From the NCBI GenBank assembly GCA_029781115.1, contig JAKOXG010000003.1, positions 62,001 to 126,000 of the forward strand: DNA of 64,000 nucleotides. The letters are read 5' to 3'. This DNA comes from Candidatus Cloacimonadota bacterium (GTDB lineage: Bacteria > Cloacimonadota > Cloacimonadia > Cloacimonadales > Cloacimonadaceae). Below, piece by piece: positions 10,701 to 25,534 of this stretch (the first letter of the stretch is position 1; each line of letters starts with the position of its first letter). A model generated the notes under the pieces. It saw only the letters and a list, made by a program, of their open reading frames with translations, did no database searches and was not told the DNA's origin. A program made the translations under genes and the position numbers.

Positions 10701-11804
10701 GCCGTAGAAATTGGCCTCATCAACCCCAACACCCGCACCTGCCCTATCTTCAGAAGCAAGCAGGATGCCGAACTCACCAAGTACATCTATTACCGCTTGT
10801 CAATACTCATTGACGATAATGATCCACTGCTGGGTAACCCTTGGGATATCTCATTCATGCGCATGTTTGATATGGCCAATGACTCAAACCTTTTTCAGAC
10901 CAAGCACGAACTAGAAGAGGAAGGCTTTGAGCTTGAGGGCAATCACCTTGTTAAGGGCGAGCAGCATTATCTGCCACTCTATGAAGCCAAGATGATGCAT
11001 CAATTCAACCACCGCTTTGGCGACTTCAGCGACCTGCCCCCAGATTCAAAGTCCACCAAATTGCCAGATATCCCTCTGGCAAAACTACAAAACCCCGATT
11101 ATGAGCCCCTCCCCAGATATTGGATCGAGAGATTTTGGGTATCATGTAAGACATACCATGATAAGGAATACGGGATTGGCTTTAGAGATATTACCAATAC
11201 AACCAATGAGAGAACAGTTATTTGCACCGCCTTCCCCTGGAGTGCCGTAGGACATAATCTTTCAATTTTGCTAACTGATAAAAGAGCCACTGAGGCTGGG
11301 TTGCTTATAGCCTGTCTGAACAGTTTTGCCTGTGATTTTATCGCCCGCTTTAAAGTAGGTGGCATTCACCTGAGTTTCTATATTTTCAAACAGTTGGCTG
11401 TCTTACCTCCGGAAGTCTTTACCGACCCGGATCTTGAGCCGCTGGTCAAGTCCATGAATGAGGCGATTTTGGAGCTGATTTACACCTCCCACAGTATGCA
11501 GCCTTTTGCCAAGGAATGTGGTTATGACGGCCCGCCCTTCATCTGGGATGAGGAGCGCAGATTTGAGCTGCGTTGCAGATTGGATGCCATCTTTTTCCAC
11601 CTCTATCTGGGTTCGCTCTCCGAATGGCAAACCGAAGCATCTCCGGCGCTTTTGTCCTATCTGCCCACACCCCGCCATGCTATAGAATATATCATGAGCA
11701 CCTTCCCCATCGTCAAACGCAAAGATGAGAAGGAATTTGGCGAATACCGCACCCTACGCCGCATCCTGGAGATCTATGATGCTTTGCCTGCGGCAAGGTG
11801 TTAG
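7707..11804 (+). CDS. Eco57I-class N6-adenine DNA methyltransferase, very large (DrmMI/PglX-like)
   Basis: 1365 residues, starting in an ATGA overlap with the helicase stop, so probably translationally coupled. The SAM-binding motif I is DPACGSGHF (about residue 536) and the catalytic motif IV is NPPW (about 808), the order of gamma-class N6-adenine methylases. Long N- and C-terminal flanks resemble Type IIG, PglX and DrmMI proteins. The C-terminal part probably carries target recognition; I saw no convincing nuclease motif. Residues about 18-40 are encoded by a heptamer repeat (four AACTCAC units at 7774-7805) next to a GCCGGC palindrome, so the native N-terminus may have been extended by repeat DNA. 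The last residues (LPAARC) and the stop lie inside another repeat copy. The DNA turns visibly AT-richer at about 9607-10125 and 11130-11400. Confidence 0.87.
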   Translation: MTNTQNHLNPQNKTNASQKPAQRLTTHNSQLTTAGAAGPGSAGIQIQGALLPAELLQRIVNTDSELEGLKPTDYHLSPSERLNEAATRAWTRLLGVWQTFKNIAANLPEEAIGTTETRERWLLPLFQELGYGRPQVQSAIEIDGKSYRISHKVAEPIALHLISFRYDLDKRNPGAKVSPHSLVQEFINRSPNHLWGFLSNGYKLRLLRDNLSLTRAAYIEFDLQAMLDNNIYNDFFLLYLLCHQSRVEAEKDENGRELPPETCWLEKWYNTSIKEGVRALDDLRNSVQAAIEALGAGFITHPANTTLKDKLRNGTLNKQDYYHQVLMLVYRLLFIFVAEDRDLLIPEAVPENVKQTYNKYYATHRIRELAYKQRGSSHTDLWQQIEILFKGLSEGNQTLGLPALGSFLFRSSSTPDLANCRIANSDLLLAFRHLCYTQKQKVFQLINYRNLGHEELGSVYESLLEMHPEINLDEGYFALDVVSGSDRKTTGSYYTPSSLVNHLLDTALEPVISNAISTLTDPKDREAAILNLKICDPACGSGHFLISAAHRLAKRLAAIRSGESEPAPSIINGALRDVIGNCIYGVDLNPMAVELCKISLWMESLEPGKPLTFLDHHIQCGNSLLGCTPELLKEGIPDAAYTPLTGDDWGDCLFYKERNRKEYAGETNLFSYTYRRVIRERDLQAKISAFNDLSDNNLQQLRAKETSYQELIHSETYQNKKLVYDAWCAAFVCIKNSSLKDIPTPVYYPMIEILNLEPESLDEPYKQEIRRLAEQYRFFHWHIAFQDVFPDLDDKPAANYGFDCILGNPPWEKVKLQEKEFFATRDEKIASAPNAAIRKKLISGIRKSNPSLYQAFLAEKRKSEGTSLLIRESGNFPLCGKGDLNTYTVFAELNRKLLADHGRCGFIVPSGIATDDSTKEFFQDIMNTDSLISLYDFENKKPHFPEVDSRYRFCLMTLRAPDKSDYFAIRSGYAPADFVFFAHDIDDLKDHERHFQLSAVEIGLINPNTRTCPIFRSKQDAELTKYIYYRLSILIDDNDPLLGNPWDISFMRMFDMANDSNLFQTKHELEEEGFELEGNHLVKGEQHYLPLYEAKMMHQFNHRFGDFSDLPPDSKSTKLPDIPLAKLQNPDYEPLPRYWIERFWVSCKTYHDKEYGIGFRDITNTTNERTVICTAFPWSAVGHNLSILLTDKRATEAGLLIACLNSFACDFIARFKVGGIHLSFYIFKQLAVLPPEVFTDPDLEPLVKSMNEAILELIYTSHSMQPFAKECGYDGPPFIWDEERRFELRCRLDAIFFHLYLGSLSEWQTEASPALLSYLPTPRHAIEYIMSTFPIVKRKDEKEFGEYRTLRRILEIYDALPAARC
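7759..7834 (+). repeat. Intragenic copy of the heptamer/palindrome repeat
   Basis: Within the methyltransferase 5' coding region, the core CCAGCGCAGC (about 7764-7773) is followed by four AACTCAC-type heptamers (7774-7801) and then GCCGGCGCAGCCGGC-type palindromes. The same core precedes the intergenic heptamer arrays at about 12061, 15738, 15798, 18553 and 24568. The array length keeps the reading frame open. Confidence 0.8.
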
Positions 11805-12098
11805 GGGTTAGGTTTTAGGTGTTAGGGCTGCGCAGGTTTCGGGGATAGACTTGTTAACTTCAGCAATCCGAATGGTTCCGAGCGATGTAAGTATCAAGCT
11901 GCGCTTGATGGCGGCGGTATGGCAACCGCCGGCTACCTCTTTGGTCGCTACAGCGAGCGACCATACATCTCCCATCCGTGATAATCCGTGTGCATCCGTG
12001 GGAAAACAAAGAGCTTCAGAGCCGCGCGTATTCCAGGGAAGAGCATACGTATCTCTGAAACCAGCGCAGCCCTAACACCTAACACCTAAAACCTGGAC
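11785..12098 (+). repeat. Mosaic repeat copy 1 (heptamer ends, hairpin modules, ATCCGTG decamers)
   Basis: It begins with GCCTGCGGCAAGGTGTTAG inside the methyltransferase stop and runs through TGTTAGG-type heptamers. Three perfect hairpins follow: ATCAAGC/GCTTGAT (11893-11909), GGCGGT-ATGGCA-ACCGCC (11913-11930) and GGTCGCT/AGCGACC (11943-11962). Next come three decamers starting ATCCGTG (about 11978-12005), a conserved block near 12008-12060, the core CCAGCGCAGC, and an inverted CCTAACA heptamer array (12071-12094). The arrays at the two ends are reverse complements, as in a MITE-like unit. No protein is encoded. Confidence 0.8.
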
Positions 12099-12305
12099 GA
12101 CGTAGTCGGCCCGGCTCTTACTCCTAACTGCCTCAGTTTCTACTCCTTACTTACTCGAGGAGCAGGAGAGCAGCAGGGAAGGAGTTGGAAGTCCGCATGG
12201 AATGGGCATTTGAGAGGTGTCGATGAGGGCGGTTTTGTGTTGCTGTTTTATATTCAAAGATCAATTATTGATTTTAGGGCGGCGCTAAGGCCGACTGCGT
12301 CGTCC
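12095..12305. mobile_element. 211-bp insertion with 17-bp terminal inverted repeats (MITE-like)
   Basis: The left end GGACGACGTAGTCGGCC (12095-12111) and right end GGCCGACTGCGTCGTCC (12289-12305) are inverted repeats matching at 16 of 17 positions. The unit abuts the heptamer array of mosaic copy 1 and is followed by more repeat sequence. Its core (about 12112-12250) recurs, diverged and inverted, at 49424-49545. No open reading frame is credible. No target-site duplication is obvious by eye. Confidence 0.6.
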
Positions 12306-12311
12306 AGTTGT

Positions 12312-12386
12312 GAGCGGCGGCTTCGCCGCAGGTGTTAGGTGTTAGGTTTTAGGTGTTAGTTTGCGGCGGTTCTGCGACCGCCCGCA
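12312..12386. repeat. Mosaic repeat fragment with heptamers and two hairpins
   Basis: A GCGGCGGCTTCGCCGC palindrome is followed by four TGTTAGG/TTTTAGG heptamers (about 12331-12358) and the hairpin GGCGGT-TCTGCG-ACCGCC (12365-12382). The fragment lies immediately downstream of the Sel1 gene whose stop is at 12389. Together with the two preceding elements it fills the 584-bp stretch 11805-12388, which holds no gene. Confidence 0.75.
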
Positions 12387-12388
12387 CA

Positions 12389-14653
12389 TCATAGATAATA
12401 AAACTCATAATACCTATGGTTTTCCAGCCAATCCTTGGCTTCAGCCTCAATCTCAGCTATTTGCTCGACAGACAGCTCTCTACCTGTTTCATATTTCATG
12501 ACAGTAGCCTCTTTCCAGCCTTTGCCTTCGGCTAAGCAAAACCAAAAGTAAGCTTGATCGGGATGGGGCGGAATGTTCAAGAAGCCGGCATAGTCTAAAC
12601 CGTAGACATAATCTCCCGCCGGGTGTCCCTGCTCTGAAGCTTTGCGTAACCAGTGGTAGGCATCGTATCGATCTCCTTCCTGATAGAGCATTTCTCCCAC
12701 TTGATACTGCGCATCTGCATAGCCTTCTTCTGCCGCTGCATAGATCCACTCTTCGGCCTGCTCATAGTCTTGTTCTACACCCAGCCCCTTTAGATGCAGA
12801 TAGCCCAGCTTGAACTGAGCGGGTGGAAATCCCCGAAAAGCCGCTTTGCTATACCATTTGGCTGCTTCCACATAGCTCTGCTTTACGCCCTTGCCCTGTT
12901 GATAGAGCATACCCATCAGGCACTCTGCTTCTTCTGCCCTTTTCTCAAGTGCTATGTCGATCCATTTTAAAGCCTCCGCGTAGTCCACTTCCACACCCAA
13001 ACCTTTGATATACAAGGTGGCCAACCTGCACTGTGAATCCAGATGGTCTTGTTCAGCTGCCTTGGCAAACCACACTGCCGCCTCACGGTAATTCTTTTTC
13101 ACACCACGTCCGCTATAATAGCATAAGCCCAGGCTATACTGAGCGTCTTTATACCCTTGCATGGCAGCCTTTTGATACCATTCGGCCGATTTGGCATCGT
13201 CGCGTTTTACATGCGCACTGTAACGATATATGCCGCCTGCCTTATATTGGGCCCAAGCATCTCCTTCCTCAGCCATTTGCAACACCTCGGTAATTGTGTA
13301 GGATTTTACTGCCGGCTTTTCGCCCTCGCTCTGCTGTTTGGGACAATTGGCCTCTAACCAGCGATCAGCTACCGCCTGCACCCGCGCTGTTTGCGCTTGG
13401 GACAGTTCTATCAGTGCTTCCTGTTTTATATAGTTGGCATATCTGACGTCATTGGCGGCAGCGATCAGCAGCCAGCAGTAGGCCTGTTCAAAATCCAGGA
13501 GTTTATCCCAGCCTTCCACATCTTTCGGCTCAGGCCGCTTTTTCTCTTGCAGAGCCGCCCGGCGAAACCACGCTTTGGCTGCGGTATAGTCCTGCGCTAA
13601 GCCTTCACCTTGATAGTGCATCAAACCCAGGGAGCACATTGCATTTGTTTCACCTGCTTCTGCGGCTTTGAGAAACCACTCTGTTGCGGCTGTATAATCC
13701 TGCGCTACGCCTTCGCCATCTTGATAAAGCAAGCCCAATTCATACTGTGCATCTGCAAGACCAGCCTCCGCGGCTTTGTGAAACCACTCTGCAGCGGCGG
13801 CATGATCCTTCTTTACACCCTTGCCATGATAATAGCGCATAGCCACGTTACACTGAGCACCCACGTGCCCCTGTTCTGCTGCCCGTTTATACCATTTGAA
13901 TGCTTGCGCCTCGTCCTTGGTAACGCCCAAGCTATAGCTATACATCGGAGCCAGTTTATATTGCGCTTCTGTATGTCCCTGCGCTGCGGCTTTATGAAAC
14001 CATTTTGCCGCAATCTCAAAATCCTGTACCGATCCCTCGCCTTCATAATACATCAGACCCAGGCGATACTGCGCTTCGGCATCGCAAATATCTATATTCT
14101 GCAGCGATTCAGCGGTGGAGTGGCCAGCGTTTTGCGCCCGGGCTTCCTCTTCTCTGGCTTGGTCAGCAGAGCGAGCATCCAACCACCGCTCGGCTACCGC
14201 CTTCGCCCGGTCTCTTTGCTCTTGGGACAGCTTAATGTATACCCCGTATTTGGTGTGCTCAGCGTATTTATTCCCGCTTTCAGCGGCGATCAGCAACCAG
14301 CAGTAGGCCTGTTCAAAATCCAAAAGTGCATCAAAGCCTTCCACATCTTTAGAAGCCGCCTCATACAAGGCCCCTTCATATCCCGAAAGAGCCGCAGTGC
14401 GAAACCAATGTGCCGCTTTTTGATAGTCTCTGTCTACCGCTTCACCCCGATAGCACATCAAACCCAACATACCCTGTGCATCTGTATCACCTGATTCTGC
14501 TGCTTTGCGATACCACTCCAAGGCTTTGGCCATGTCTCTCGCCACTTCTATGCCAAGAGAGTAGATATTGCCCGCCCTGAGCTGGGCATAGGCGTCTCCA
14601 GCCTCTGCTTGCTTCAATATCTGTTCGTTTGTTTGCTTATTGTTTTGATTCAT
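12389..14653 (-). CDS. Sel1-repeat protein, 754 residues, three fused modules
   Basis: About 14 Sel1-like (TPR-related, roughly 36-residue) units can be read from the recurring AQYxLGxMYxxGxGV pattern. There is no signal peptide or membrane segment, so it is probably cytoplasmic. SD AGAGGA precedes the ATG at 14653. Every Sel1 protein in this cluster ends with a distinct helical cap (AYxW, then LSxEQ, then AxxWL). Here that cap appears three times, near residues 103-163, 375-440 and at the end, so the protein reads as three Sel1 proteins joined head to tail. Sel1 proteins act as scaffolds in signalling and protein complexes; no partner can be named. It is the most downstream member of six minus-strand paralogues and faces the methyltransferase convergently. 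Confidence 0.9.
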   Translation of the reverse strand: MNQNNKQTNEQILKQAEAGDAYAQLRAGNIYSLGIEVARDMAKALEWYRKAAESGDTDAQGMLGLMCYRGEAVDRDYQKAAHWFRTAALSGYEGALYEAASKDVEGFDALLDFEQAYCWLLIAAESGNKYAEHTKYGVYIKLSQEQRDRAKAVAERWLDARSADQAREEEARAQNAGHSTAESLQNIDICDAEAQYRLGLMYYEGEGSVQDFEIAAKWFHKAAAQGHTEAQYKLAPMYSYSLGVTKDEAQAFKWYKRAAEQGHVGAQCNVAMRYYHGKGVKKDHAAAAEWFHKAAEAGLADAQYELGLLYQDGEGVAQDYTAATEWFLKAAEAGETNAMCSLGLMHYQGEGLAQDYTAAKAWFRRAALQEKKRPEPKDVEGWDKLLDFEQAYCWLLIAAANDVRYANYIKQEALIELSQAQTARVQAVADRWLEANCPKQQSEGEKPAVKSYTITEVLQMAEEGDAWAQYKAGGIYRYSAHVKRDDAKSAEWYQKAAMQGYKDAQYSLGLCYYSGRGVKKNYREAAVWFAKAAEQDHLDSQCRLATLYIKGLGVEVDYAEALKWIDIALEKRAEEAECLMGMLYQQGKGVKQSYVEAAKWYSKAAFRGFPPAQFKLGYLHLKGLGVEQDYEQAEEWIYAAAEEGYADAQYQVGEMLYQEGDRYDAYHWLRKASEQGHPAGDYVYGLDYAGFLNIPPHPDQAYFWFCLAEGKGWKEATVMKYETGRELSVEQIAEIEAEAKDWLENHRYYEFYYL

Positions 14654-14667
14654 TGTTTCCTCTGTTG

Positions 14668-14900
14668 TTAGCTATTAGGTTTTAGGTGTTAGGTGTTAGG
14701 GCTGCGCTGGTTTCAGAGATATGTATGCTCTTCCCTGGAATACGCGCGGTTCTGAAGCTCTTTGTTTTTCCACGGATGCACACGGATGATCACGGATGGG
14801 AGATGTATGGTCACTTGCCACAGCGACCTTCCCTTGTAGCCGGCGTTTGCCAAACCGCCGCAAATTAACACCTAAAACCTAAAACCTAACACCTTGCCGC
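14668..14900 (-). repeat. Mosaic repeat copy 2 (inverted relative to copy 1)
   Basis: Read on the minus strand it matches copy 1 from the hairpin modules through the ATCCGTG decamers and CCAGCGCAGC core. On the + strand TGTTAGG heptamers stand at the left end (about 14670-14697) and CCTAAAA/CCTAACA heptamers at the right end (about 14868-14893). A degenerate hairpin with a TGCC loop lies near 14838-14863. It separates two Sel1 genes and overlaps the last codons of the gene ending at 14879. Confidence 0.8.
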
Positions 14901-15577
14901 AGGCGCATCCATTCCTCCGCCTCCGCTCTGATCTCCTCCATTTGCTCTTCGGTCAGAAATTCGGAAACCTCATCCATGAACATTTCGGCAAATTCATCTT
15001 CATTTTTATCAGCGATCACAAGCCAGAAATAGGCTTTTTGATAATCTTGCTCAACATCCCCACCTTCCAAATAATACACTCCCAGGCTGCACTGTGCTTG
15101 TGCATGTCCCTGCAGAGCTGCTTTGTGGAGCAATTCCATCGCTTTTGCCTGGTCCTCATCCACACCCCAGCCCATACTATAGAGCAGACCCAAGTGATAT
15201 TGCGCATTCATATCACCGGCCTCTGCGGCTTTCTGATACCACCCTGCCGCTTCATAGTGGTCTATGCCCACACCATCGCCTTTTTCATACATCAAACCTA
15301 GGTTAAACTGCGCTTCAACCATTCCTTGTTCTGCGGCTTTGCGAAACCAGGTGGCGGCATCAAGGTAATTATCTGACTTCAGATACAAAACCCCCAACAT
15401 AAATTGTGATTTTGCATCACCTTGATCTGCAACTTTACGATACCATTTTGCTGCCTCAACGCGATCCTGCTCCACACCTTCACCATAATAATACATCACG
15501 GCCAAGTTAAACTGCGCTTCCATATCGCCGGCTTCTGCATTTCTCAATAAATCCTCAAAGCTATTGTCTTTTTCCAT
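14879..15577 (-). CDS. Sel1-repeat protein, 232 residues
   Basis: About five Sel1 units followed by the cluster's C-terminal cap (AYFWLVIAD, LTEEQ, EEWM). There is no signal peptide. AGGAG lies 8 nt before ATG 15577. The last residues, LRQGVRF, and the TAG stop are read from the mosaic repeat (GCCTGCGGCAAGGTGTTAG plus a heptamer), so the native C-terminus may have been altered by the repeat. Its first 60 coding bases and about 95 bp upstream are nearly identical to those of the 821-residue paralogue starting at 18331, which marks a recent duplication. The function is unknown beyond a probable scaffold role. Confidence 0.88.
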   Translation of the reverse strand: MEKDNSFEDLLRNAEAGDMEAQFNLAVMYYYGEGVEQDRVEAAKWYRKVADQGDAKSQFMLGVLYLKSDNYLDAATWFRKAAEQGMVEAQFNLGLMYEKGDGVGIDHYEAAGWYQKAAEAGDMNAQYHLGLLYSMGWGVDEDQAKAMELLHKAALQGHAQAQCSLGVYYLEGGDVEQDYQKAYFWLVIADKNEDEFAEMFMDEVSEFLTEEQMEEIRAEAEEWMRLRQGVRF

Positions 15578-15672
15578 TAGGACGACTCCTATTTGTTTTT
15601 TGCAAGAAAAGAAGGGTTTAGTTTTTTGTCAATAAAGATTTGATTTTCCCTGATTTAACTTACCCATTCGTG
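15578..15672 (-). promoter_or_regulatory. Duplicated upstream region of Sel1 genes
   Basis: These 95 bp match 18332-18424 with only about three substitutions. Read on the minus strand both carry TTGACA (near 15635 here), an A/T-rich spacer and AGGAG before the ATG. No strong -10 hexamer is seen at the expected spacing. The matching copies suggest the two genes are controlled alike. Confidence 0.5.
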
Positions 15673-15862
15673 TAATTCGTGGAAATGCCCTTTCTATAGC
15701 TGATCTCGCTTTTGCTCAGAGTACGCTTATCTCTGAAACCAGCGCAGCGACTGAAGACTGAAGACTGACGACTTACGACTTGCCGAAGGCATCCCCAAAA
15801 CCAGCGCAGCTCCTAACACCTAACACCTAGTACCTAACACCTTGCCGCAGGCACCGCAGCCG
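15660..15862 (+). repeat. Mosaic repeat copy 3 with two kinds of heptamer
   Basis: A CATTCGTG/ATTCGTG decamer fragment (about 15666-15685) is followed by ATCTCTGAAACCAGCGCAGC (about 15731-15749) and heptamers of GACTGAA/GACTTAC type (15750-15780). A GCCGAAGGC palindrome comes next, then a second CCAGCGCAGC with CCTAACA heptamers (about 15808-15843), ending GCCGCAGGC. One locus thus carries two different heptamer sequences behind the same core. It ends a few bases from the stop of the next Sel1 gene. Confidence 0.8.
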
Positions 15863-15865
15863 CCC

Positions 15866-18331
15866 CTACAGCCCACTGAACAGTAATTCTATTATTCTCT
15901 TATTCTTCAACTGCTCCGCAAGCTTTTCATCTATGGCTTCCTTTTGTTGTGGGGTGATTTTTCCTGCTGCCTCATCCCGCGCAGCCGCAGCTTTTTCCAA
16001 TCCGCTCTCGTGCGCTCTTGCAAACCAGTAATATGATTCTTCAAAATCCTGTTCTGTCCCTTCGCCGTCCCCATACATCGTGGCCAAAGTATACTGTGCA
16101 TCTGTATGCCCTTTATGTGAAGCTCTGAGCAGCCATTTCACCGTCTCGGCTTTGTCCTCATCAACGCCTTGGGCTTTATAATACATAAAAGCCAGTCTAT
16201 ACTGTGCTTCTTCGCTCCCCTGTTCTGCAGCGGCGAGCATCCATTTATGAGCCTCAGCATAATCCTGCTTCACGCCTTCACCAAATCTGTACATGCGTCC
16301 CAACCGGTACTGCGCTCTTACATCTCCTTGGTCTGCAGCTTTAAGGAACCACTTTTTGGCCTCTTTATAATCCTGGTCTACCCCCTCGCCTTTAAAATAC
16401 ATATCAGCCAACAGGTATTGTGCAAATGCAACTCCCTTGAGGGCAGATTTTTTGTACCATTTACGGGCCTCCACAAAATCCTGATCTACACCATGGCCAT
16501 AATAATAAAAGGCACCTATGGCCAGGCATGCATTTTCATCTCCTTGAAGAGCTGCTTCCCGATACCACTTCATGGCTTCAATATAGTCCTTGTCGACACC
16601 CACACCATACTCACACATGGCGGCCAAACTGAATTGGGCAAGTCTGATTCCCTGGTGGGCAGCTTTGCGATACCACTCTGCCGCAGCAGTGCGGTCCAGC
16701 TCTACACCGTAGCCGCCATAATACAATGCACCCAATTCATATTGAGCTTGGGCATATCCCTGCTCTGCCGCTTTACGAATCCACTCCGCGGCAAACCTAC
16801 CGTTCTTTTCCACACCATTTCCCTTGAAATACAATGCGGCCAGATCAAGCTGCGCCTGAGCATCTCCCTGATTTGCCGCTTCCCAGATCGCTTCGATCGC
16901 ATCGGCTTCGGCATCATCATAATCCTCCGGTGTGTCATCGTAGTCCATTTTTGCATCCGTCTGTACGGCGAGAACTGCCTTGTCCCTTGCAGGCTGTATG
17001 GGAATGGGGTTGGGGTCAGGAACGCCGCGGCTTTTCCAAAATTCTTTGAAGAAAGCCTGAGCGCGTCTGTTTGCCTGTTCCAACAAGGCAGCCAAAGACC
17101 AGGCATCCTTCCTCTGCTGAACTCTTTGATCCACCTTTTCTCTTTGCGATTCCGAGAGTTCCCCGTCCAACTTCTTTCTCAGTATATCTCCTTCATAGAA
17201 CTCTTCATATTCCTCCGCAAACGAAAGCCAGTAGTAGGCCTCTTCATAGTCAGGTTCCACACCTTTACCATACGCATACATTTGTGCCAACAAACGCAGC
17301 CCGTGTTCGCTGTTTTCATCTGCTGCTTTGCGAAGCCACTTGAAAGCTTTCTTGAGGTCCCTGTCCCCATTGTGTGCAGTATGATACTCCCACCCCAATT
17401 CGTATTGTGCTCCTTTATGCCCCTGTTCTGCTGCCTTATGAAGCCATCTCAGCATTGGTTTCAACAACCGTGGTCCTGTTATTAAGCCGCCCCGACAATT
17501 GTGGGCATGCTGATATTGTGCTTCGGCATGTCCCTGAAGTGCAGCTTTTTTAAACCACCGCGCGGCTTCGGCTTCGTCACGCTGCTTATACAGGGGATTA
17601 TCATAGATGCAGGCCAATTTGTATTGTGCCTGGGCATCTCCCTGAAGAGCGGCCTCACGATAGCGCTTTAGCTCTTTTGAACCATCCAGGGGCTTGTGAT
17701 AACGCCCGGCTTCGCCATATCTCAAACTAATCTCTGCATTTTCACATCCCTGGCGAGCGGCTTCACGATACCAAAACGCGGCCTTTTTAAAATCCTGATC
17801 CACCCATTCGCCACTGTCATACATCCTCCCCAATCTGTATTGTGCTTCGGCATGTCCCTGATCAGCGGCATCGCTAAACATCTGGTAAGCTGTGGCATGA
17901 TTCTTCATTTCACCTTCATGATGCAGGGTACCAAACACATACTGCGCCTCGGCATCGCCGTCCAATGCAGCTCCGCAAAACCACGAAGCCGCCTTGTTAA
18001 GATCACGCTCCACGCCATAGCCTCTTTGGTAAATGATGCCCATGAAATGCTTCGCCGCAACATCGCCCTGCTTGCACGCCCGAAGTAAATACTTTATCCC
18101 CTCGTCACGATCCTGCTTTACACCCCTGCCAAACAAATATAACAGTCCCAACAGCCGCTCTCCCCCGGCCAAGCCCTGCTGAGCTGCCTTGCGAAACCAT
18201 TTGGCTGCCTCTTTATCATCCTGCTCTGCGCCTTCACCATAATAATACATCAAGCCTACTATCGACTGCGCTTCGGCATCGCCAGCTTTTGCACTTCTCA
18301 ATAAATCTTCAAAGCTATCGTCTTTTTCCAT
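15866..18331 (-). CDS. Sel1-repeat protein, 821 residues, two fused modules
   Basis: More than 15 Sel1 units occur in two blocks. The first block ends in a cap (EEAYYWLSFAEE, LSESQ) followed by a non-repeat linker that is acidic in part (MDYDDTPEDYDDAEADAIE). A second block then ends in a cap (ESYYWFARAHE, ITPQQ). There is no export signal. SD AGGAG is 8 nt before the ATG. The N-terminus (MEKDDSFEDLLR) and upstream DNA match the 232-residue paralogue, so the two share an ancestor by duplication and the larger appears to have gained a second Sel1 protein by fusion. Long + strand frames opposite this gene are shadows of the repeat periodicity. Confidence 0.9.
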   Translation of the reverse strand: MEKDDSFEDLLRSAKAGDAEAQSIVGLMYYYGEGAEQDDKEAAKWFRKAAQQGLAGGERLLGLLYLFGRGVKQDRDEGIKYLLRACKQGDVAAKHFMGIIYQRGYGVERDLNKAASWFCGAALDGDAEAQYVFGTLHHEGEMKNHATAYQMFSDAADQGHAEAQYRLGRMYDSGEWVDQDFKKAAFWYREAARQGCENAEISLRYGEAGRYHKPLDGSKELKRYREAALQGDAQAQYKLACIYDNPLYKQRDEAEAARWFKKAALQGHAEAQYQHAHNCRGGLITGPRLLKPMLRWLHKAAEQGHKGAQYELGWEYHTAHNGDRDLKKAFKWLRKAADENSEHGLRLLAQMYAYGKGVEPDYEEAYYWLSFAEEYEEFYEGDILRKKLDGELSESQREKVDQRVQQRKDAWSLAALLEQANRRAQAFFKEFWKSRGVPDPNPIPIQPARDKAVLAVQTDAKMDYDDTPEDYDDAEADAIEAIWEAANQGDAQAQLDLAALYFKGNGVEKNGRFAAEWIRKAAEQGYAQAQYELGALYYGGYGVELDRTAAAEWYRKAAHQGIRLAQFSLAAMCEYGVGVDKDYIEAMKWYREAALQGDENACLAIGAFYYYGHGVDQDFVEARKWYKKSALKGVAFAQYLLADMYFKGEGVDQDYKEAKKWFLKAADQGDVRAQYRLGRMYRFGEGVKQDYAEAHKWMLAAAEQGSEEAQYRLAFMYYKAQGVDEDKAETVKWLLRASHKGHTDAQYTLATMYGDGEGTEQDFEESYYWFARAHESGLEKAAAARDEAAGKITPQQKEAIDEKLAEQLKNKRIIELLFSGL

Positions 18332-18620
18332 TAGGACGACTCCTATTTGTTTTTTGCAAGAAAAGAAAGGTTTAGCTTTTTGTCAATAAGGATTTGATTT
18401 TCCCTGATTTAACTTACCCATTCGTGTTAATCCGTGTAATTCGTGGAAAAGCACAAGAGGCGGCGGTTCGGCGACCGCCGGCTACAAGATAAGGTCGCTA
18501 TGGGCAAGCGACCATACTTATGCAGTCAAGAGCACACGAATCTCTGAAACCAGCGCAGCTCCTAACACATAAAACCTAAAACCTAACACCTAATACCTAA
18601 TAAAACCAATCAGACTGGCT
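18332..18620. repeat. Mosaic repeat copy 4 plus duplicated Sel1 upstream region
   Basis: Bases 18332-18424 repeat the upstream region of the 232-residue Sel1 gene. The rest holds ATTCGTG/ATCCGTG decamers (18419-18448), hairpins GGCGGT-TCGGCG-ACCGCC (18462-18479) and GGTCGCT-ATGGGCA-AGCGACC (18493-18513), the core CCAGCGCAGC (about 18551-18560) and CCTAAAA/CCTAACA/CCTAATA heptamers (18561-18600). There is no gene here. Confidence 0.8.
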
Positions 18621-19505
18621 TTATTCACGTCTCTTGAGCCATGCCTCCGCTCTGGCTTCCAGCTTATCTACCTGCTCTGGGGAAAGATGCTCAACTACAT
18701 CGTCTTTATTGAAGTCTGAGTAACCGGCTCCCATCCCATTTTCCTCTGCGATATACAGCCAGAAATAGGCCTCCTCATGATTGACGGGTGCACCCTTGCC
18801 GCGGGCATAACAAAAGCCCAATTGCCACTGAGCGTAAACGTTATCCTGTTCAGCTGCCAGACGATAGAGCCTCAAGGCTTCAGCGGCATTTTCTTCTACG
18901 CCGGTGGCAGTCTCATAAAGCAGACCCAGCCAATACTGAGCATCCGGATGGCCTTTGTCGGCGGCGATGCGATACCATTTGGCGGCTTCGGTGGGATCGT
19001 CCTCAATCTCGGCATAATAGTAGCCCACCTGAGCATTCCCTTCGGCACTTCCCTGAGCGGCGGCTTTCTTATACCATCTCAGCGATTCCTGATGATCTGT
19101 TTCAACGCCGATGCCCCAGCTATACATGCGCCCCAAGCCGCACTGCCCATCTGCATCCCCTTGGTCTGCGGCTAAGCGATACCACTTTTGAGCTTCGTAG
19201 CTATCTTCAGATACTCCCCTGCCAAAGAAATAGATGTCACCCAGCATGCTTTGCGCTTTGGCATGGCCTTGATCGGCGGCTCTACGGAACCATTTGACGG
19301 CTTCGGTATAGTCCTGATCCACACCCTTGCCGTCATGATAGGCTTTGCCCTTCAAATACAGTGATTGCGCATCATCTGCTGCTGGTGCCTGGGGTGCTGG
19401 TGGTGCTTCAGGCGCCTTGGACGCTGGCTTCTTGCCGTTGGCGGCGCAGGCGGTTGAAAAGATCAGGCTGCAGAGCAGCAAGGTAATAATCGGTATCTTT
19501 TTCAT
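18621..19505 (-). CDS. Exported Sel1-repeat protein, 294 residues
   Basis: The start at 19505 is chosen because AAGGAGA lies just upstream and the protein then opens with a clear signal peptide (MKKIPIITLLLCSLIFSTAC). An upstream in-frame ATG at 19538 has no such support. The signal ends STACAAN, which could be a lipobox with unusual -3 residue or a signal peptidase I site, so the protein is either a lipoprotein or periplasmic. About six Sel1 units follow a short Ala/Pro-rich linker, then the cluster cap (EEAYFWLYIAEE, LSPEQ, EAWL). The same TACAAN signal occurs in the next two genes. The overall form resembles Hcp-like secreted Sel1 proteins; the function is unknown. Confidence 0.9.
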   Translation of the reverse strand: MKKIPIITLLLCSLIFSTACAANGKKPASKAPEAPPAPQAPAADDAQSLYLKGKAYHDGKGVDQDYTEAVKWFRRAADQGHAKAQSMLGDIYFFGRGVSEDSYEAQKWYRLAADQGDADGQCGLGRMYSWGIGVETDHQESLRWYKKAAAQGSAEGNAQVGYYYAEIEDDPTEAAKWYRIAADKGHPDAQYWLGLLYETATGVEENAAEALRLYRLAAEQDNVYAQWQLGFCYARGKGAPVNHEEAYFWLYIAEENGMGAGYSDFNKDDVVEHLSPEQVDKLEARAEAWLKRRE

Positions 19506-19538
19506 CTGGTTCTCCTTTTTAGTTTTCCACGGATGCAA

Positions 19539-21755
19539 TTACTGGTGAAGCTCCTTCGCCCTATTCCAAACCCGCGCTCTTTGTTCAATGGTCAGTTTCT
19601 GTGCCAGCTCGTGCAATTCATCTGCCACCCACATGGTGTCAGAAGCGAGCAGCAGCCAGTAATATGCCTCTTCATTGTTTTGAGTGACGCCCAAGCCTTG
19701 GCGATACATCTCACTCAGGCGATGCTGTGGAGCCGGAACTCCTTGCAGGGCAGCCATCTGATACCACTTTGCCGCCTCAGCATAATCCTGCGTCACGCCG
19801 TCGCCTTCATCATACATGACTCCCAGGTCGAGCTGCGCATAAGCGTGCCCCTGTTCAGCGGCTCTACGCAGCCATTTCAGCGCCTCGTAAACATCTTCCG
19901 AGCCTTCCCATCTGTAGTATCCGCCCAGCCAATACTGTGCAATATCCAAACCCTGGTCTGCGGCTTTGCGGCACCAGGTCAATGCTTCAGAGCTGTTTGC
20001 GGCCACGCCGGTACCACTGTGATACATGGTGGCCAGGCGATACTGGGCATAGGCATTTCCTTGCAGGGCGGCATCTTGAAACCAACTTAAAGCTTCCGCT
20101 TCATTGCGCTGGATGCCCACACCCTCGTAATAGATATAGCCCAGATAGTATTGGGCAAGTGGCAATCTGTTGTTAGCGGCCTTGCGATACCACTTCAGGG
20201 CTTGGGCGTCATCCTGCTCCACGCCAATGCCCCATTTGTAGATGGCGCCCAGATCACACTGTGCCTGCGCATGTTCTTGAGCGGCGGCTTTCAGATACCA
20301 CTTCAGGGCTTCAGCATCGTCCTGCTTCACGCCCTGGCCGAGGTGATAGCTCGCAGCCAGGTTGTATTGCGCTTGCGCATCGCCCTGATCCGCCAGCTTA
20401 CGATAGCGATTCAATTCTTGGGCTGCATCTGCGCTTGACTCCAAGCTGCGCCGCGATCTGACATAACCTTCATCGGTAGCCAAACGAAACAGGGTTGCTG
20501 CCTCAGAGCGATTCCGCTCCACGCCTATGCCGGCGTCATACATCAAGGCCAACATGTGCTGTGCAGGTGCAAACCCTTTGATGGAGGCCTGTTCAAACCA
20601 TTTGGCTGCCTCGGGATAATCACGCTTCATACCTTGCCCATGAAAATGCATCAAGCCCAGATAGTAGTCCACGGCTGCATCTTTGGCAGCTGAAGCTTTG
20701 AGGAGCCATTTGTGAGCTTGGGCAAAGTCCTGCTTTACTCCCTCACCGCGATAATACATCAAACCCAGCGTATACTGTGCATCAGATGAGCCCGCCTCTG
20801 CAGCTTGGCGGTAAAGTCTGACTGCCTCGGCGTCATCACGCTGAACGCCCTCACCATGGCGATACATCCCGGCCAAGCAAAGCTGCGCTTCTGCCAAGCC
20901 TCGAGCAGCGGCTTTGCGATACCACTGCAAAGCCTCATCACGATCCTGATACACTGCCTGTCCATAAAAATACATCTCACCCAAGATAATTTCAGCAAAA
21001 GCCGAACCCTTATCAGACATATCGCTCAGTATCTGCACCGCTTCTTCAGGATAGGCCTGCCGGAGTTCTTCATCCTGATACACCGTTTCCCAGAGCAGTT
21101 CCCGACCCAGGTTTTCCACAGCCACTGCTTTCTGATACCATCTGAATGCTTCGGCAAAATTACGCTTTACGCCCACGCCGTTGTGATACATTGTCACCAA
21201 TCTGAGCTGTGCCGCAACCGCTCCCTGCAAAGCGGATCTGTGGAACCATTGGAAGGCCTGAGCATAGTCCCTTTCCACGCCGGCGCCCTCAAAATAGATG
21301 TAGCCCAGCCAATACTGCGCTTCCGCATCGCCCTGCGCTGCAGCTTGGCGATACCAGTTGAGCGCCTCAGCATAATCAGGCTCGATATCTTCACTAAAGA
21401 GATAGATCTCGCCCAAGGCGCGCTGGGCTTCCACTTGCCCCTTGGCTGCGGCTTTGCGATACCAGCTGATGGCCTGAGGAACATCCGGTACCACACCGTA
21501 GCCCCAGTGATACATCTTGCCCAGCTCGTACTCTGCTTCGGTGTGCCCCTGCAGAGCGGCTTGACGATACCACTTCATCGCTTCATAATAATCCGGAGCT
21601 GAGACGTCCTTGCCCTCGTCATACTTTTTGCCCAGCAGATACTGAGATTGGGCGTCAGTGGCTGATGCCTTGGGTGCTGGCTGCTTGCTGTTGGCAGCAC
21701 AGGCGGTCGTTAAGGCGATGCTGCAGATCAGCATTGCTATGAGTATCTTTTTCAT
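19539..21755 (-). CDS. Exported Sel1-repeat protein, 738 residues
   Basis: The start at 21755 follows AAGGAAC and gives the signal peptide MKKILIAMLICSIALTTAC; the frame extends upstream to 21869 without support. About 18 Sel1 units can be counted, with an irregular stretch near the middle (EEAVQILSDMSDKGSAF) and another (DAAQELNRYRKLADQGD) that look like worn or non-Sel1 insertions. It closes with the cap EEAYYWLLLASD and LTIEQ. It is one of three consecutive exported Sel1 paralogues, the gap to the gene downstream being 33 bp. Envelope location is inferred; partners are unknown. Confidence 0.9.
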   Translation of the reverse strand: MKKILIAMLICSIALTTACAANSKQPAPKASATDAQSQYLLGKKYDEGKDVSAPDYYEAMKWYRQAALQGHTEAEYELGKMYHWGYGVVPDVPQAISWYRKAAAKGQVEAQRALGEIYLFSEDIEPDYAEALNWYRQAAAQGDAEAQYWLGYIYFEGAGVERDYAQAFQWFHRSALQGAVAAQLRLVTMYHNGVGVKRNFAEAFRWYQKAVAVENLGRELLWETVYQDEELRQAYPEEAVQILSDMSDKGSAFAEIILGEMYFYGQAVYQDRDEALQWYRKAAARGLAEAQLCLAGMYRHGEGVQRDDAEAVRLYRQAAEAGSSDAQYTLGLMYYRGEGVKQDFAQAHKWLLKASAAKDAAVDYYLGLMHFHGQGMKRDYPEAAKWFEQASIKGFAPAQHMLALMYDAGIGVERNRSEAATLFRLATDEGYVRSRRSLESSADAAQELNRYRKLADQGDAQAQYNLAASYHLGQGVKQDDAEALKWYLKAAAQEHAQAQCDLGAIYKWGIGVEQDDAQALKWYRKAANNRLPLAQYYLGYIYYEGVGIQRNEAEALSWFQDAALQGNAYAQYRLATMYHSGTGVAANSSEALTWCRKAADQGLDIAQYWLGGYYRWEGSEDVYEALKWLRRAAEQGHAYAQLDLGVMYDEGDGVTQDYAEAAKWYQMAALQGVPAPQHRLSEMYRQGLGVTQNNEEAYYWLLLASDTMWVADELHELAQKLTIEQRARVWNRAKELHQ

Positions 21756-21770
21756 AAGTAGTTCCTTTTT

Positions 21771-21865
21771 AGCTTTTCCACGGATATTCACGGATAAACA
21801 CGGACGGAAGGTTCGCAATCGTTGACTGATAAAGCCAGCGGAGCTGGCCGCTCTCACTCTCTCCC
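21771..21865. repeat. Short repeat fragment between Sel1 genes
   Basis: CCACGGAT-type decamers (21779-21808: units beginning CACGGAT/CACGGAC) are followed by a CCAGCGGAGCTGG palindrome and a CTCACTCTCTCCCT-type direct repeat that runs into the 3' end of the upstream Sel1 gene. Similar single CCACGGATGCA pieces lie at 19520-19533 and 23401-23420. Confidence 0.6.
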
Positions 21866-23281
21866 TCACTCACTCTCTCCCTCTTCGTAGGCTTCTATCC
21901 ATTTTTCGACTCTTTGGTCGATCTCAGACCTTTTTGCCGGTGAAAGCTGCTGTGACAGCTCTTCCAGTTGTTCCCAGACGTAGGCGGTGGAATCTGCTAC
22001 CTTGATCCAGAAATAGGCTTCTTCAAGGTCTTTGGTCACGCCCAGTCCTTGCGCATAGCATTGGCTCAGATAAATCTGTGCTTCAGAATATCCGCCTTCT
22101 GCGCCCATGCGGAGCCATTTTACAGCCTCGGCGTAGTCCTGCTTTACCTCTGTGCCATTGAAGTAGAGCTCGCCCAAGGCAAGTTGCGCCTCAGTCCAGC
22201 CTTGAAGGGCAGATTTGCGATACCATTGCAGTGCTGTGTTGATGTCTCGCTCCACACCTTGGCCATTTTGATACATGCGCCCCAACCAGCACTGCGCATC
22301 TGCATCTCCCTGATCAGCGGCTTTGCGATACCATTTCAGCGCCTCAGTATTGCTCTCCTTCACACCTGCTCCCCATCTGTATTTGAAGCCCAAACGCAGC
22401 TGTGCCTGGGTGTGCCCCTGGTCGGCAGCCCGGCGCAACAACCACAAGGCCTCATCATTATCCACGATGCCACCCAGACCCGCCTCAAGCCAAGTCCCCA
22501 GCTCATACTGAGCGGGCGCATAGTTTTGCTCTACCGCTTGATACATCCACTTTAATATGTCAGAGATGTCATCATCCGGACCCAAGCGTTTGTAATAGGT
22601 GACACCCAAGATAAACTGTGCGGGTGCGCTGCCCGAATTTGCAGACCTGAGCCACCATTTTTCTGCCTCCTGGGTGTTTTGCGGCAGCTTGGGATCGTGA
22701 AAATAGAGCAAACCCAGATAATACTGCGCATTGGCGTGGCCTTGGTCGGCGGCTTTGCGCAGCCATTGGAACGCCTCGGCAAAATCCTGAGTTACGCCCT
22801 GGCCGTCATGATACATCAGCCCCAGATGAAACTGAGCATCCGCATCGCCCTGAGCGGCAGCTTGGCGATACTCTTTGAGCTTTTTGACGTCGTAAGCCAA
22901 ACTGGTTTTGACTCTTGCGTAACCCCTATCAGCGGCTCTGGCAAACCATTTTGCCGCCTCATTGGGATCAGTTTTCACGCCCTGGCCATGCTGATACATC
23001 AAGCCCAGCCAATAATGTGCTCTGGCATCTCCCATCTTGGCAGCTTTATGGAGCCATTTCCCGGCTTCTGCATAATCCTGCTTCACACCTTGGCTATTAT
23101 AATACATGAGACCCAATTGGAACTGAGCGGCTTTATCTCCCTGAACAGCAGCGATGCGATACCGCTCCAAATCTTCAGAGTAGCCCTGCTTCACGCCTGC
23201 CTGAGGCGTCTTGCTGTTGGCGGCGCAGGCGGTCGAAAACACCAAACCGCAAAGCAGAGTGACTATGAGTAGCTTCTTCAT
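21866..23281 (-). CDS. Exported Sel1-repeat protein, 471 residues
   Basis: A strong GGAGG precedes ATG 23281. The signal peptide is MKKLLIVTLLCGLVFSTAC followed by AANSK, nearly identical to the two downstream paralogues. About 11 Sel1 units follow, interrupted by a region (KVKTSLAYDVKKLKEYR-like) joining two blocks, and the protein ends with the cap EEAYFWIKVADS, LSPAKR and EKWIEAYEEGESE. This is the promoter-proximal member of the Sel1 run: TTGACA occurs about 55 bp upstream on the minus strand, without a clean -10. A scaffold or envelope role is possible; nothing in the sequence fixes it. Confidence 0.9.
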   Translation of the reverse strand: MKKLLIVTLLCGLVFSTACAANSKTPQAGVKQGYSEDLERYRIAAVQGDKAAQFQLGLMYYNSQGVKQDYAEAGKWLHKAAKMGDARAHYWLGLMYQHGQGVKTDPNEAAKWFARAADRGYARVKTSLAYDVKKLKEYRQAAAQGDADAQFHLGLMYHDGQGVTQDFAEAFQWLRKAADQGHANAQYYLGLLYFHDPKLPQNTQEAEKWWLRSANSGSAPAQFILGVTYYKRLGPDDDISDILKWMYQAVEQNYAPAQYELGTWLEAGLGGIVDNDEALWLLRRAADQGHTQAQLRLGFKYRWGAGVKESNTEALKWYRKAADQGDADAQCWLGRMYQNGQGVERDINTALQWYRKSALQGWTEAQLALGELYFNGTEVKQDYAEAVKWLRMGAEGGYSEAQIYLSQCYAQGLGVTKDLEEAYFWIKVADSTAYVWEQLEELSQQLSPAKRSEIDQRVEKWIEAYEEGESE

Positions 23282-23708
23282 ATTTGTACCTCCAAATTCT
23301 TCACTCTTCGCAAGTAGATATTTGTTGAGCTTTTTGTCAAGTCTGATTATCCTGCAGAAGGCGGAATGATGGAGAGAGCCGGACTGTCACACTGCCCCTG
23401 ATCCATGTGCATCCGTGAAAACAAGAAAAAGCTTGACCGTGAGACTCAGCGCAAAATGATGTGATCCAAGATAAAAGAGTGAGGCTCAAGTTCATTTATG
23501 GTGGGTTAAATGATTGCCAACTACCGGCATTACCAAACCAGAATAATGCAATGTTCCTTACCTACCTCTTCCTTACTGAGCCTCCCGGATATTACCCGGA
23601 GCCTCCCGGGAAAAACCCGAGTATCTCCACGGCATCTCCGGGCGGGTAAGTAAGGGCCAGGTCAGTGATGAGCTTCGACTCACTAAAACTGAACATGAGC
23701 CAAGAGTA
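23282..23708. other. Gene-free region with multi-hairpin element
   Basis: This 427-bp stretch holds the divergent upstream regions of a Sel1 gene (minus) and the HhH glycosylase gene (plus). A fragment of the ATCCGTG repeat lies at 23401-23425 and the structured element at 23571-23655. I see no gene; short frames here lack start signals. Confidence 0.7.
23571..23655 (+). repeat. Structured multi-hairpin repeat, copy 1
   Basis: A closing stem CCTTACT/AGTAAGG (23571-23577 with 23649-23655) encloses a CCGG-loop-CCGG hairpin, a CTC(CC)GGG-AAAAA-CCCGAG bulged hairpin and a third arm. A stretch of about 40 nt at the centre is identical to the copy at 36633-36720. The closing stem differs there by a compensating pair change, which supports a folded form. 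Confidence 0.75.
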
Positions 23709-24368
23709 ATGAGCATGACACTATTAGAGATATATCAGAGCTTGCGTGACCTCTACGGTCACAGAGGCGGGTGGCCGGGTGAGACCACCGATGAGATCAT
23801 AATCGGCGCAATCCTCACCCAAAATGTCACTTGGAAAAACGTGGAAAAAGCACTCCACAAGCTCAAAGAAAACGGGCTGATCTCGATGGTGGAGATCTAT
23901 CATACACCGGCAGAGCGCATCGCACCACTCATCATCCCCACGCGCTACTACAACATGAAAGCGCAAAGGCTGAAGAACTTTGCCAGCTTCTTTCATGACG
24001 AATATTCCTTCTCATATCCTAAGATGTTCAACGTGGATACGGCGACCTTGAGGAACCAACTGCTGCAGATCAAGGGAATCGGACGCGAAACTGCGGATTC
24101 AATCCTGCTTTACGCCGGCGGGAAGCTGCAATTCGTCACGGATGCCTATACTGCCAGACTGTTGGGCCGACTGGGCTTTTTTACCGAGAAACTCACCTAT
24201 GACGAACAGGTCGCCCGGATCGTGGAACAAATCCCCGCAGATGTAGACCTCTATCAAGATATGCACGCCCAGATCGTGCACTTTTCGGCGACCGTGTGTA
24301 AAGCCAAGCCACTGTGTGGAGAGTGTGTTTTGAGGCGAAGCTGCGCTTCGCCTTCGGCAAGGTGTTAG
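23709..24368 (+). CDS. HhH-GPD DNA glycosylase, endonuclease III/MagIII-like
   Basis: A 219-residue base-excision-repair protein. It has the ILTQNVTWKNVEKA motif typical of endonuclease III-related enzymes, the helix-hairpin-helix LLQIKGIGRETADSIL and the catalytic Asp in FVTDAY. The lysine of bifunctional endonuclease III (GRKTA) is Glu here (GRETA), so a monofunctional glycosylase such as a 3-methyladenine (MagIII-type) enzyme is more likely than an AP lyase. Four cysteines spaced C-X5-C-X2-C-X5-C at the C-terminus fit a [4Fe-4S] cluster. The last 12 codons, including the fourth cysteine and the stop, lie inside repeat DNA (a 21-nt palindrome at 24333-24353 and a heptamer array). Confidence 0.88.
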   Translation: MSMTLLEIYQSLRDLYGHRGGWPGETTDEIIIGAILTQNVTWKNVEKALHKLKENGLISMVEIYHTPAERIAPLIIPTRYYNMKAQRLKNFASFFHDEYSFSYPKMFNVDTATLRNQLLQIKGIGRETADSILLYAGGKLQFVTDAYTARLLGRLGFFTEKLTYDEQVARIVEQIPADVDLYQDMHAQIVHFSATVCKAKPLCGECVLRRSCASPSARC

Positions 24369-24644
24369 GTGTTAGCGGCCGGCGGGGTCGGCCAGGTGTT
24401 AGGTACTAGGTGTTAGGTGTTAGGAGCTGACGCACGCGTGTACGGGCGGTCGCTATGGCAAGCAACCATACATCTCCCATCCGTGATCATCCGTGTGCAT
24501 CCGTGGAAAAACAAAGAGCTTCAGAGCTGCGCGTATTCCAGTGAAGAGCACACGTGTCTCTGAAACCAGCGCAGCCCTAACCCCTAACACCTAAAACCTA
24601 AAACCTGGCGGCTAAGCCGTAGCGGCTAAGCCGCCCGCAAAAAA
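24333..24644 (+). repeat. Mosaic repeat copy 5
   Basis: It starts inside the glycosylase 3' end with a perfect 9-bp stem (AGGCGAAGC) around a TGC loop. GCCTTCGGCAAGGTGTTAG and TGTTAGG heptamers (24361-24421, split by a CGGCCGGCGGGGTCGGCC segment) follow. Then come the hairpin GGTCGCT-ATGGCA-AGCAACC (24448-24467, one mismatch), ATCCGTG decamers (about 24479-24508), the CCAGCGCAGC core, CCTAACA heptamers (about 24573-24605) and a tandem GCGGCTAAGCCG palindrome (24607-24635). It fills the gap before the TatD-family gene; no other gene is visible in 24369-24712. Confidence 0.8.
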
Positions 24645-24712
24645 ACTCTTTGACAAGATACAGCCCTTGGATTTTCGTTGTCCGATATCAAATAATGGGA
24701 AAAAGTATAGAT

Positions 24713-25534
24713 ATGAAACTGTTTGAAACTCACGCTCATCTGGATTTGCCAGATTTTAACAAGGACAGGGAAGCCCTTATCACTAAGTGCTTTAGCAGCG
24801 GCATTGAGTATATTATCAACATTGGTTTCAACAAGGAGACCTCACTGAACTCCTTGGAACTGGCCAATAAGCATAGCCATATATTTGCCACTGCGGGCTA
24901 TCATCCGCACGATGCGACGGATTTTGATGCCGAGCTGATCAAGCGTTTGGCTCGGGAGAAAAAGATAGTTGCTATCGGTGAGATTGGTCTGGATTTCTTC
25001 CGCAACCTCTCGCCTTACACTGTGCAACGCGAAGTCTTTGCCAATCAGGCACATCTGGCTGTGGCATACGATCTTCCCGTGGTGGTGCACAACCGTGATG
25101 CGCATCAGGAATGCTATAAAATCCTCAAAGATGAGGAGGTGAAAGAGGCTGTCTTCCATTGCTTTACGGGAGACATCATCTTTGCCGAGCAGGTCTTGGA
25201 AGCGGGCTGGATGCTTTCCTTCACCGGCGCCATCACCTATGCAAATTCCAAGCTGGACGATGTGATCCGCATGGTGCCCATGGACAGGTTTATGATCGAG
25301 ACGGATTGCCCCTATCTGCCGCCGGTTCCGCATCGTGGCAAGCGCAATAGCCCTCTGTTTCTGCATTTGGTGGCGGAGAAAATCGCCGAGATCAAGGAGA
25401 TCACACCTTTGGAGGTGGCGCAACACTCCTTTGATAACGCCTATAAGTTCTTCAGGATACCCGAAGAGCCGGTGAAGCCTGTAGGGAAATCCAAATCTCA
25501 AAAAAAGACGCGTGAGCGCAAAACCAAAAAATGA
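24713..25534 (+). CDS. TatD-family metal-dependent DNase/hydrolase
   Basis: 274 residues if started at 24713 (MKLFETHAHLD), the usual TatD N-terminus; in-frame ATGs at 24650 and 24695 are possible but unsupported. Metal ligands are visible as THAHLD, GEIGLDFFR, VVHNRDAH, FHCFTG and ETDCPYL, and the C-terminal PVPHRGKRNSP motif is complete. TatD enzymes are cytoplasmic 3'-5' exonucleases acting in DNA repair and RNA turnover. A basic tail (SKSQKKTRERKTKK) is an addition to the family core. It starts right after mosaic repeat copy 5, whose TTGACA at 24650-24655 lacks a matching -10. It is the first gene of a co-directional stretch to 38.1 kb. Confidence 0.9.
   Translation: MKLFETHAHLDLPDFNKDREALITKCFSSGIEYIINIGFNKETSLNSLELANKHSHIFATAGYHPHDATDFDAELIKRLAREKKIVAIGEIGLDFFRNLSPYTVQREVFANQAHLAVAYDLPVVVHNRDAHQECYKILKDEEVKEAVFHCFTGDIIFAEQVLEAGWMLSFTGAITYANSKLDDVIRMVPMDRFMIETDCPYLPPVPHRGKRNSPLFLHLVAEKIAEIKEITPLEVAQHSFDNAYKFFRIPEEPVKPVGKSKSQKKTRERKTKK

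Follow-up and report, generated by a model that had tools for sequence, protein, structure and literature searches.

Heptamer arrays of a Cloacimonadota genome and their probable link to mobile IVP/S23p cassettes

We analysed a stretch of 64,000 nucleotides (the window) from a Candidatus Cloacimonadota bacterium (contig JAKOXG010000003.1), in which tandem arrays of seven-nucleotide units recur together with a short core, CCAGCGCAGC. Our main conclusion, to which we assign a probability of roughly 0.6, is that these heptamer arrays and a mobile cassette are parts of one system. The sole gene of that cassette encodes the intervening-sequence protein of 23S rRNA (IVP/S23p, PF05635), which is of the four-helix-bundle type. 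On the best reading, the solo arrays are gene-less relatives of the IVP cassettes, that is, elements like the intervening sequences (IVSs) of rRNA, but situated outside rRNA. We found no earlier report joining heptamer arrays and IVP/S23p in the searchable literature, outside of which most subscription papers lie.

IVP/S23p genes between inverted repeat arms

In the genome that holds the window (G000; 2.25 Mb in 22 contigs), all three IVP genes lie on one contig (C4) and are framed by period-7 arrays. We also read IVP genes in some 30 further genomes of this family, counting a score of at least 14 as an inverted match between the two flanks. By this measure, the flanks matched in inverted orientation at 51 of 54 scored genes and at all six further copies in G031, a genome of another genus, which amounts to 57/60 in Cloacimonadota. 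The controls gave 1% for random positions, 3/202 for matched open reading frames (ORFs) and 1/64 for coding sequences on Nostoc plasmids. The flanks of different IVP copies match each other only 5-9% of the time, and the repeat unit therefore belongs to the copy. The cassettes measure about 430-510 bp, and their arms (66 arms from Cloacimonadota and plasmids) have a median length of 34 nt and dominant periods of 7 (or 14), 8 and 9, the 5′ arm being purine-rich in 60/66. The predicted RNA folds are stable (z of -5.6 and -4.3), close on the arms and enclose the ORF. A single-sequence AlphaFold model of the protein had a mean pLDDT of 49 and was left unused.

The gene is portable, and its arms are found well beyond this phylum. 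A tblastn search with the G000 protein returned 45 plasmids, mostly from Nostoc, Calothrix and other cyanobacteria, and also from Gemmatirosa, Azospirillum and Riemerella. Matched inverted arms, for instance AGTAGGG/CCCTACT, GGGAACA/TGTTCCC and GGGTGTA/TACACCC, were present at 15 of 21 plasmid loci (Cyanobacteria, Gemmatimonadota, Alphaproteobacteria, Bacteroidota), and the annotated plasmid cassettes sit between protein-coding genes, not within a 23S rRNA gene. Presence and absence vary among relatives: direct reading of the junctions identified cassette-free sites (loci L366 to L372) between nrdB and nrdA, between an integrase and a hypothetical gene, between TraM and a hypothetical gene, where about 40 bp are replaced, and between cas6 and cas4. 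Of two genomes of the same genus, the orthologous G002 appears to lack both C4 insertions of G000, and G005 the first of them. No IVP gene was found in phages or in IMG/VR.

An association of IVP with CRISPR loci has been reported in the literature. In two type I-D loci (L343, L345) the IVP gene lies between cas6 and cas4, and because this arrangement looks like an insertion that is absent in a close relative (L372), the reported association may be an insertion effect.

Solo arrays in the genome and among relatives

A genome-wide search of G000 for the core followed by an array, allowing up to three mismatches, gave 56 matches as compared to none for the reversed control, and the family that the first-pass annotation had described is thus not confined to the window. 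A census of 791 kb (35% of the genome) counted 93 period-7 arrays under strict and 119 under relaxed settings, the latter figure being unfit for blind scaling-up because the contigs were partly picked for having matches; in the same sample each other period from 3 to 13 accounted for 0-9 arrays, against the 93 strict ones of period 7. Nearly all units fit the degenerate frame NMCTNAM (ACCTAAC 69, GACTGAC 14, CCCTAAC 11, AACTCAC 8, and others). As 7 and 3 are coprime, such arrays might place stop codons in all frames; this function is ruled out, because AACTCAC and GACTGAC are without stops on one strand.

The order of modules is fixed: inner dyads of about 22 nt and CCAGCGCAGC are followed by the array and then often by a GC hairpin, in which the arm sequence varies while the pairing is kept. 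The core stands on the inner side of 99/119 arrays. Just outside 48/119 lies a hairpin with an arm of 5 bp or more, whereas random intergenic positions have one in 15% of cases. Of the pairs formed by neighbouring arrays, 15 are directed outward and one inward; the arrays stand at the outer edges of intergenic composites, and 4/119 lie inside a coding sequence. The same core, as CAGCGCAGC, is sometimes followed by an octamer array of CTCTCCCT and not by heptamers (composites L056 at C10:246.8k and L055 at C10:237.4k of G000).

The close outer neighbours of arrays are gene 3′ ends in 25 cases and others in 6 (25/31, p=0.0005), and arrays are found in 14/29 convergent intergenic regions versus 5/31 divergent ones (p=0.01). 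Insertion combined with selection against promoter damage would give this bias. It would also fit arrays kept by selection for a regulatory role, be it as binding sites, translational signals or terminators. Such a role was proposed for the TAACTGA heptamer repeats of Beggiatoaceae (PMC4679880) and considered for the GGGAATC repeats of Xanthomonas, which are known from Nostoc too and form 70 inverted pairs in Xanthomonas campestris pv. campestris (Xcc) (PMC4692102). However, promoter avoidance accounts for the location, presence and absence vary among close relatives, one and the same locus can carry different units, and arrays at gene ends are found in either strand orientation. We regard a regulatory role as very unlikely.

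Among 125 Cloacimonadota genomes, the core with three generic heptamers is found in four only (G000, G002 and G005 of one genus, and G031), and the distribution in the phylum is thus patchy; three further members of the genus of G000 lack the combination. Where G000 has a 1.1-kb composite that includes four arrays, G005 has about 48 bp; a second composite corresponds to about 90 unrelated bp in G005, and at a third locus the G005 composite carries different heptamers (AACTCAC, GACTGAC) from those of G000. Two breaks of gene order between these genomes coincide with arrays (C3:35.6k with C1:80.6k, and C1:86.3k with C22:30.7k); arrays at both ends are as expected for recombination between them, which is suggestive. 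The first-pass annotation had named empty sites in relatives as a check, and proof of an assembly artefact as what would refute its reading. The former exist for composites and IVP cassettes alike, and the latter fails, since the same architecture recurs in the independent assemblies of G002, G005 and G031, and matched inverted heptamer arms are found in complete plasmid records as well. In IMG/VR, the core with an array was not found. At least 120 viral contig stretches of that database (L158-L277) carry generic CTNACNN heptamer arrays.

The link between solo arrays and cassettes comes from their units. All four array-rich genomes have a main solo-array unit that is also the unit in the arms of an IVP gene of the same genome: CCTAACA and GACTGAC in G000, GACTGAC in G005, AACTCAC in G002, and in G031 all three main types (CCTAACA, AATGAATG-type and AATGTAG-type). 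The gene-less composites, moreover, have the same outward polarity as the IVP arms. It could be argued that the solo arrays are an independent family, similar to microsatellites or to the short tandem repeats (STRRs) of cyanobacteria and generated by slippage, and that IVP cassettes preferentially insert into such arrays in array-rich genomes. The G000 IVP genes do sit within longer array tracts. Yet insertion into one array would leave the same orientation on both sides, while the arms are inverted, and inverted, copy-specific arms persist in genomes almost free of other period-7 arrays. An independent family is, in our estimate, unlikely.

Several observations weigh against a common system of arrays and cassettes, the first two of which also speak for the independent family. 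Two cassettes (L073 and L288) carry arrays in direct orientation, and neither IVP genes nor IVP remnants were found outside the three C4 genes in the 791-kb sample, including the composites of the window. The core and the 9/10-mer modules of the composites were not seen at the IVP genes of other genera, and no resident IVP arm has the unit of the AACTCAC arrays in G000 or of the AACTCAC/AACTAAC arrays in G005. Inverted flanks alone are not unique to IVP, as several RAYT genes have them too (5/12, with rough gene calls and with RAYT having inverted repeats of its own). Finally, no clear target-site duplication, as expected of miniature inverted-repeat transposable elements (MITEs), was visible at the cassette-free and empty sites examined; inverted outer arrays are present in the composites. 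As the gene-less composites of the sample contain no IVP remnants, their descent from cassettes by internal deletion is inferred and not observed; for this reason, and because of the modules foreign to IVP genes of other genera, we put our confidence no higher than the value given above.

A further candidate for the mobility of the composites is the RAYT (Y1_Tnp) transposase, which would move them as elements like the repetitive extragenic palindromic sequences (REPs) and REPINs. Like REP/REPIN-RAYT systems, G000 has small intergenic hairpin repeats together with RAYT. Two RAYT-like Y1_Tnp genes (221 aa; L118 at C20:42.2k and L119 at C19:0.9k) lie between tandem hairpins of the GGTCGCTATGGCAAGCGACC type, which the composites contain as well; this likely is a REP/RAYT system. 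Hairpins headed by GTAG or GTAT are present in the window. REPs, however, are without heptamer arrays, many RAYT-bearing relatives lack arrays, and RAYT was found in G000 and G002, whereas the array-bearing G005 (99% completeness) has no PF01797 match. RAYT presence does not correlate with arrays, which speaks against RAYT as the sole mover, and we consider an origin of the composites as RAYT-moved elements to be unlikely.

Proposed mechanism and known systems

The two arms of an IVP cassette may pair in RNA (or in single-stranded DNA) and form a long stem that tolerates shifts of register and encloses the gene. By analogy to rRNA IVSs, host transcripts could be freed of the cassette by RNase III, and insertions into operons would thereby be tolerable. 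A fold-back intermediate, in which one arm serves as the template for the other, may keep the arms homogeneous, and slippage may change their length. In a few genomes including G000, gene-less DNA bearing arms would have multiplied in the manner of MITEs, which would give the solo arrays and the outward-pointing composites of the window. IVP itself may assist the spread of its own RNA or cDNA. It is a relative of Avd, the partner of a reverse transcriptase (RT): the protein matches bAvd (E 1e-8), and homology to the Avd protein of diversity-generating retroelements (DGRs) has been described (PMC10053308). Unlike DGRs, IVP cassettes have neither an RT nor template/variable repeats. G000 has a DGR-like locus (L374, C7:43000-48000), recognised from translations alone, with an FGE-sulfatase-like target, an Avd-like protein (128 aa) and an RT (354 aa), which is a possible RT partner of IVP. 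As a required partner, RT (PF00078) is ruled out: it is undetected in G008, G017 and G026, whose IVP genes have arms, and an RT is thus not needed to keep armed IVP genes.

Among the closest known systems are the rRNA IVSs of Coxiella and Leptospira, in which, as in the IVP cassettes, a PF05635 ORF lies inside terminal inverted repeats. The IVS in the Coxiella 23S rRNA has three tandem heptamers ahead of the S23p ORF, their copy number varies between strains, and it was suspected to be a transposition remnant (PMC4990558). The IVP cassettes differ in their location, which is in intergenic regions and operons and not in rRNA genes, and in their arms, which consist of tandem repeats with a unit specific to the copy. 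The heptamers of Beggiatoaceae and Xanthomonas share with the present arrays the patchy distribution across phyla; the respective papers discuss a regulatory or G-quadruplex-forming role and do not mention S23p or a four-helix protein (PMC4679880, PMC4692102). Xcc is also the source of the IVP homologue whose structure is known (2gsc, XCC0516). Heptamer arrays are also known in Geobacter.

Heptanucleotide STRRs and small dispersed repeats were reportedly described in cyanobacteria by Mazel in 1990 and by Elhai in 2008. The first-pass annotation had likened the window's arrays to STRRs, and this likeness is supported: the arrays have period 7, are intergenic, dispersed and mixed with small hairpins, and their units are specific to the lineage and species. 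From the original classes they differ in their units, ACCTAAC, GACTGAC and AACTCAC, and in their non-cyanobacterial host. No gene association of STRRs is reported in the searchable papers. Given that the link to IVP/S23p holds in Cloacimonadota and on cyanobacterial plasmids alike, the likeness is probably more than superficial.

In a wider formulation, to which we would give even odds, IVP/S23p genes across phyla form minimal mobile cassettes without a recognisable transposase, whose self-complementary tandem-repeat arms have their unit renewed in each copy; STRRs and related dispersed heptamer repeats in bacteria would be the gene-less footprints of such cassettes, and rRNA IVSs the particular case of insertion into rRNA. 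This might provide a single answer to two puzzles, namely what the bacterial heptamer repeats are, unexplained since about 1990, and what S23p/IVP genes do in and outside rRNA. It predicts arms at every IVP gene, matching units within genomes, and processing by RNase III.

Arrays and neighbouring features of the window

The window contains ten strict period-7 runs (7772, 12070, 12329, 14673, 14865, 15748, 15812, 18567, 24400 and 24575), and a relaxed scan adds an array at 11796, giving about 11; ten Markov shuffles of the window contained none. Composites in which a core precedes heptamers whose unit differs by locus had been noticed in the first-pass annotation, and they are borne out by seven cores (plus strand at 7764, 12061, 15739, 15801, 18550 and 24566, minus strand at 14701) and by CCTAACA/CCTAAAA, GACTGAA and AACTCAC units, the last at 7771-7809, outside the interval then delimited. 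Its ATCCGTG 10-mers (14771 and 24478), its palindromes (three copies of GCCGNAGGC) and its three composites with inverted arrays at both ends (11796/12068, 14668/14863 and 24399/24573) were likewise recovered. Two ORFs end inside arrays (Table 1). The second of the composites has a 230-bp copy, 95% identical, at C1:60903-61132 of G000. An Rfam search of 11000-25000 gave no match up to E=1.

Table 1. Positions of arrays, composites and an adjoining repeat in the window
Feature	Position	Strand
Core CCAGCGCAGC + AACTCAC array, in-frame read-through near start of ORF 7707-11804	7764..7809	+
Composite 1, left inverted heptamer array; gives stop codon of ORF 7707-11804	11796..11826	-
Composite 1, right end: core + CCTAACA array + hairpin GGACGACGTAGTCGGCC	12061..12112	+
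Dispersed repeat family C, ~160 bp, ~20 copies in G000, adjoining composite 1	12113..12275	+
Inverted CCTAACA array, outer hairpin GCGGCGGCTTCGCCGC	12313..12361	-
Composite 2: arrays 14668-14703 (-) and 14863-14897 (+) flanking 10-mers 14770-14798	14668..14905	.
Chain: core, GACTGAA array, hairpin GCCGAAGGC, core, CCTAACA array, hairpin GCCGCAGGC	15739..15853	+
Core + CCTAACA/CCTAAAA array	18550..18603	+
Composite 3, left inverted arrays, GC palindrome between; endonuclease III-like ORF 23709-24368 stops inside	24363..24426	-
Composite 3, middle: ATCCGTG 10-mer array	24478..24505	+
Composite 3, right end: core + CCTAACA array + double hairpin (GGCGGCTAAGCCG...)	24566..24634	+

A cluster of six large Sel1-repeat genes occupies the minus strand at 12389-23281, and these genes appear incidental to the arrays. 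At 23483-23701 lies a member of a dispersed repeat family that is independent of the heptamer arrays; its core of about 100 bp is rich in CCTCCCGG, and dozens of copies are present in G000 and G005.

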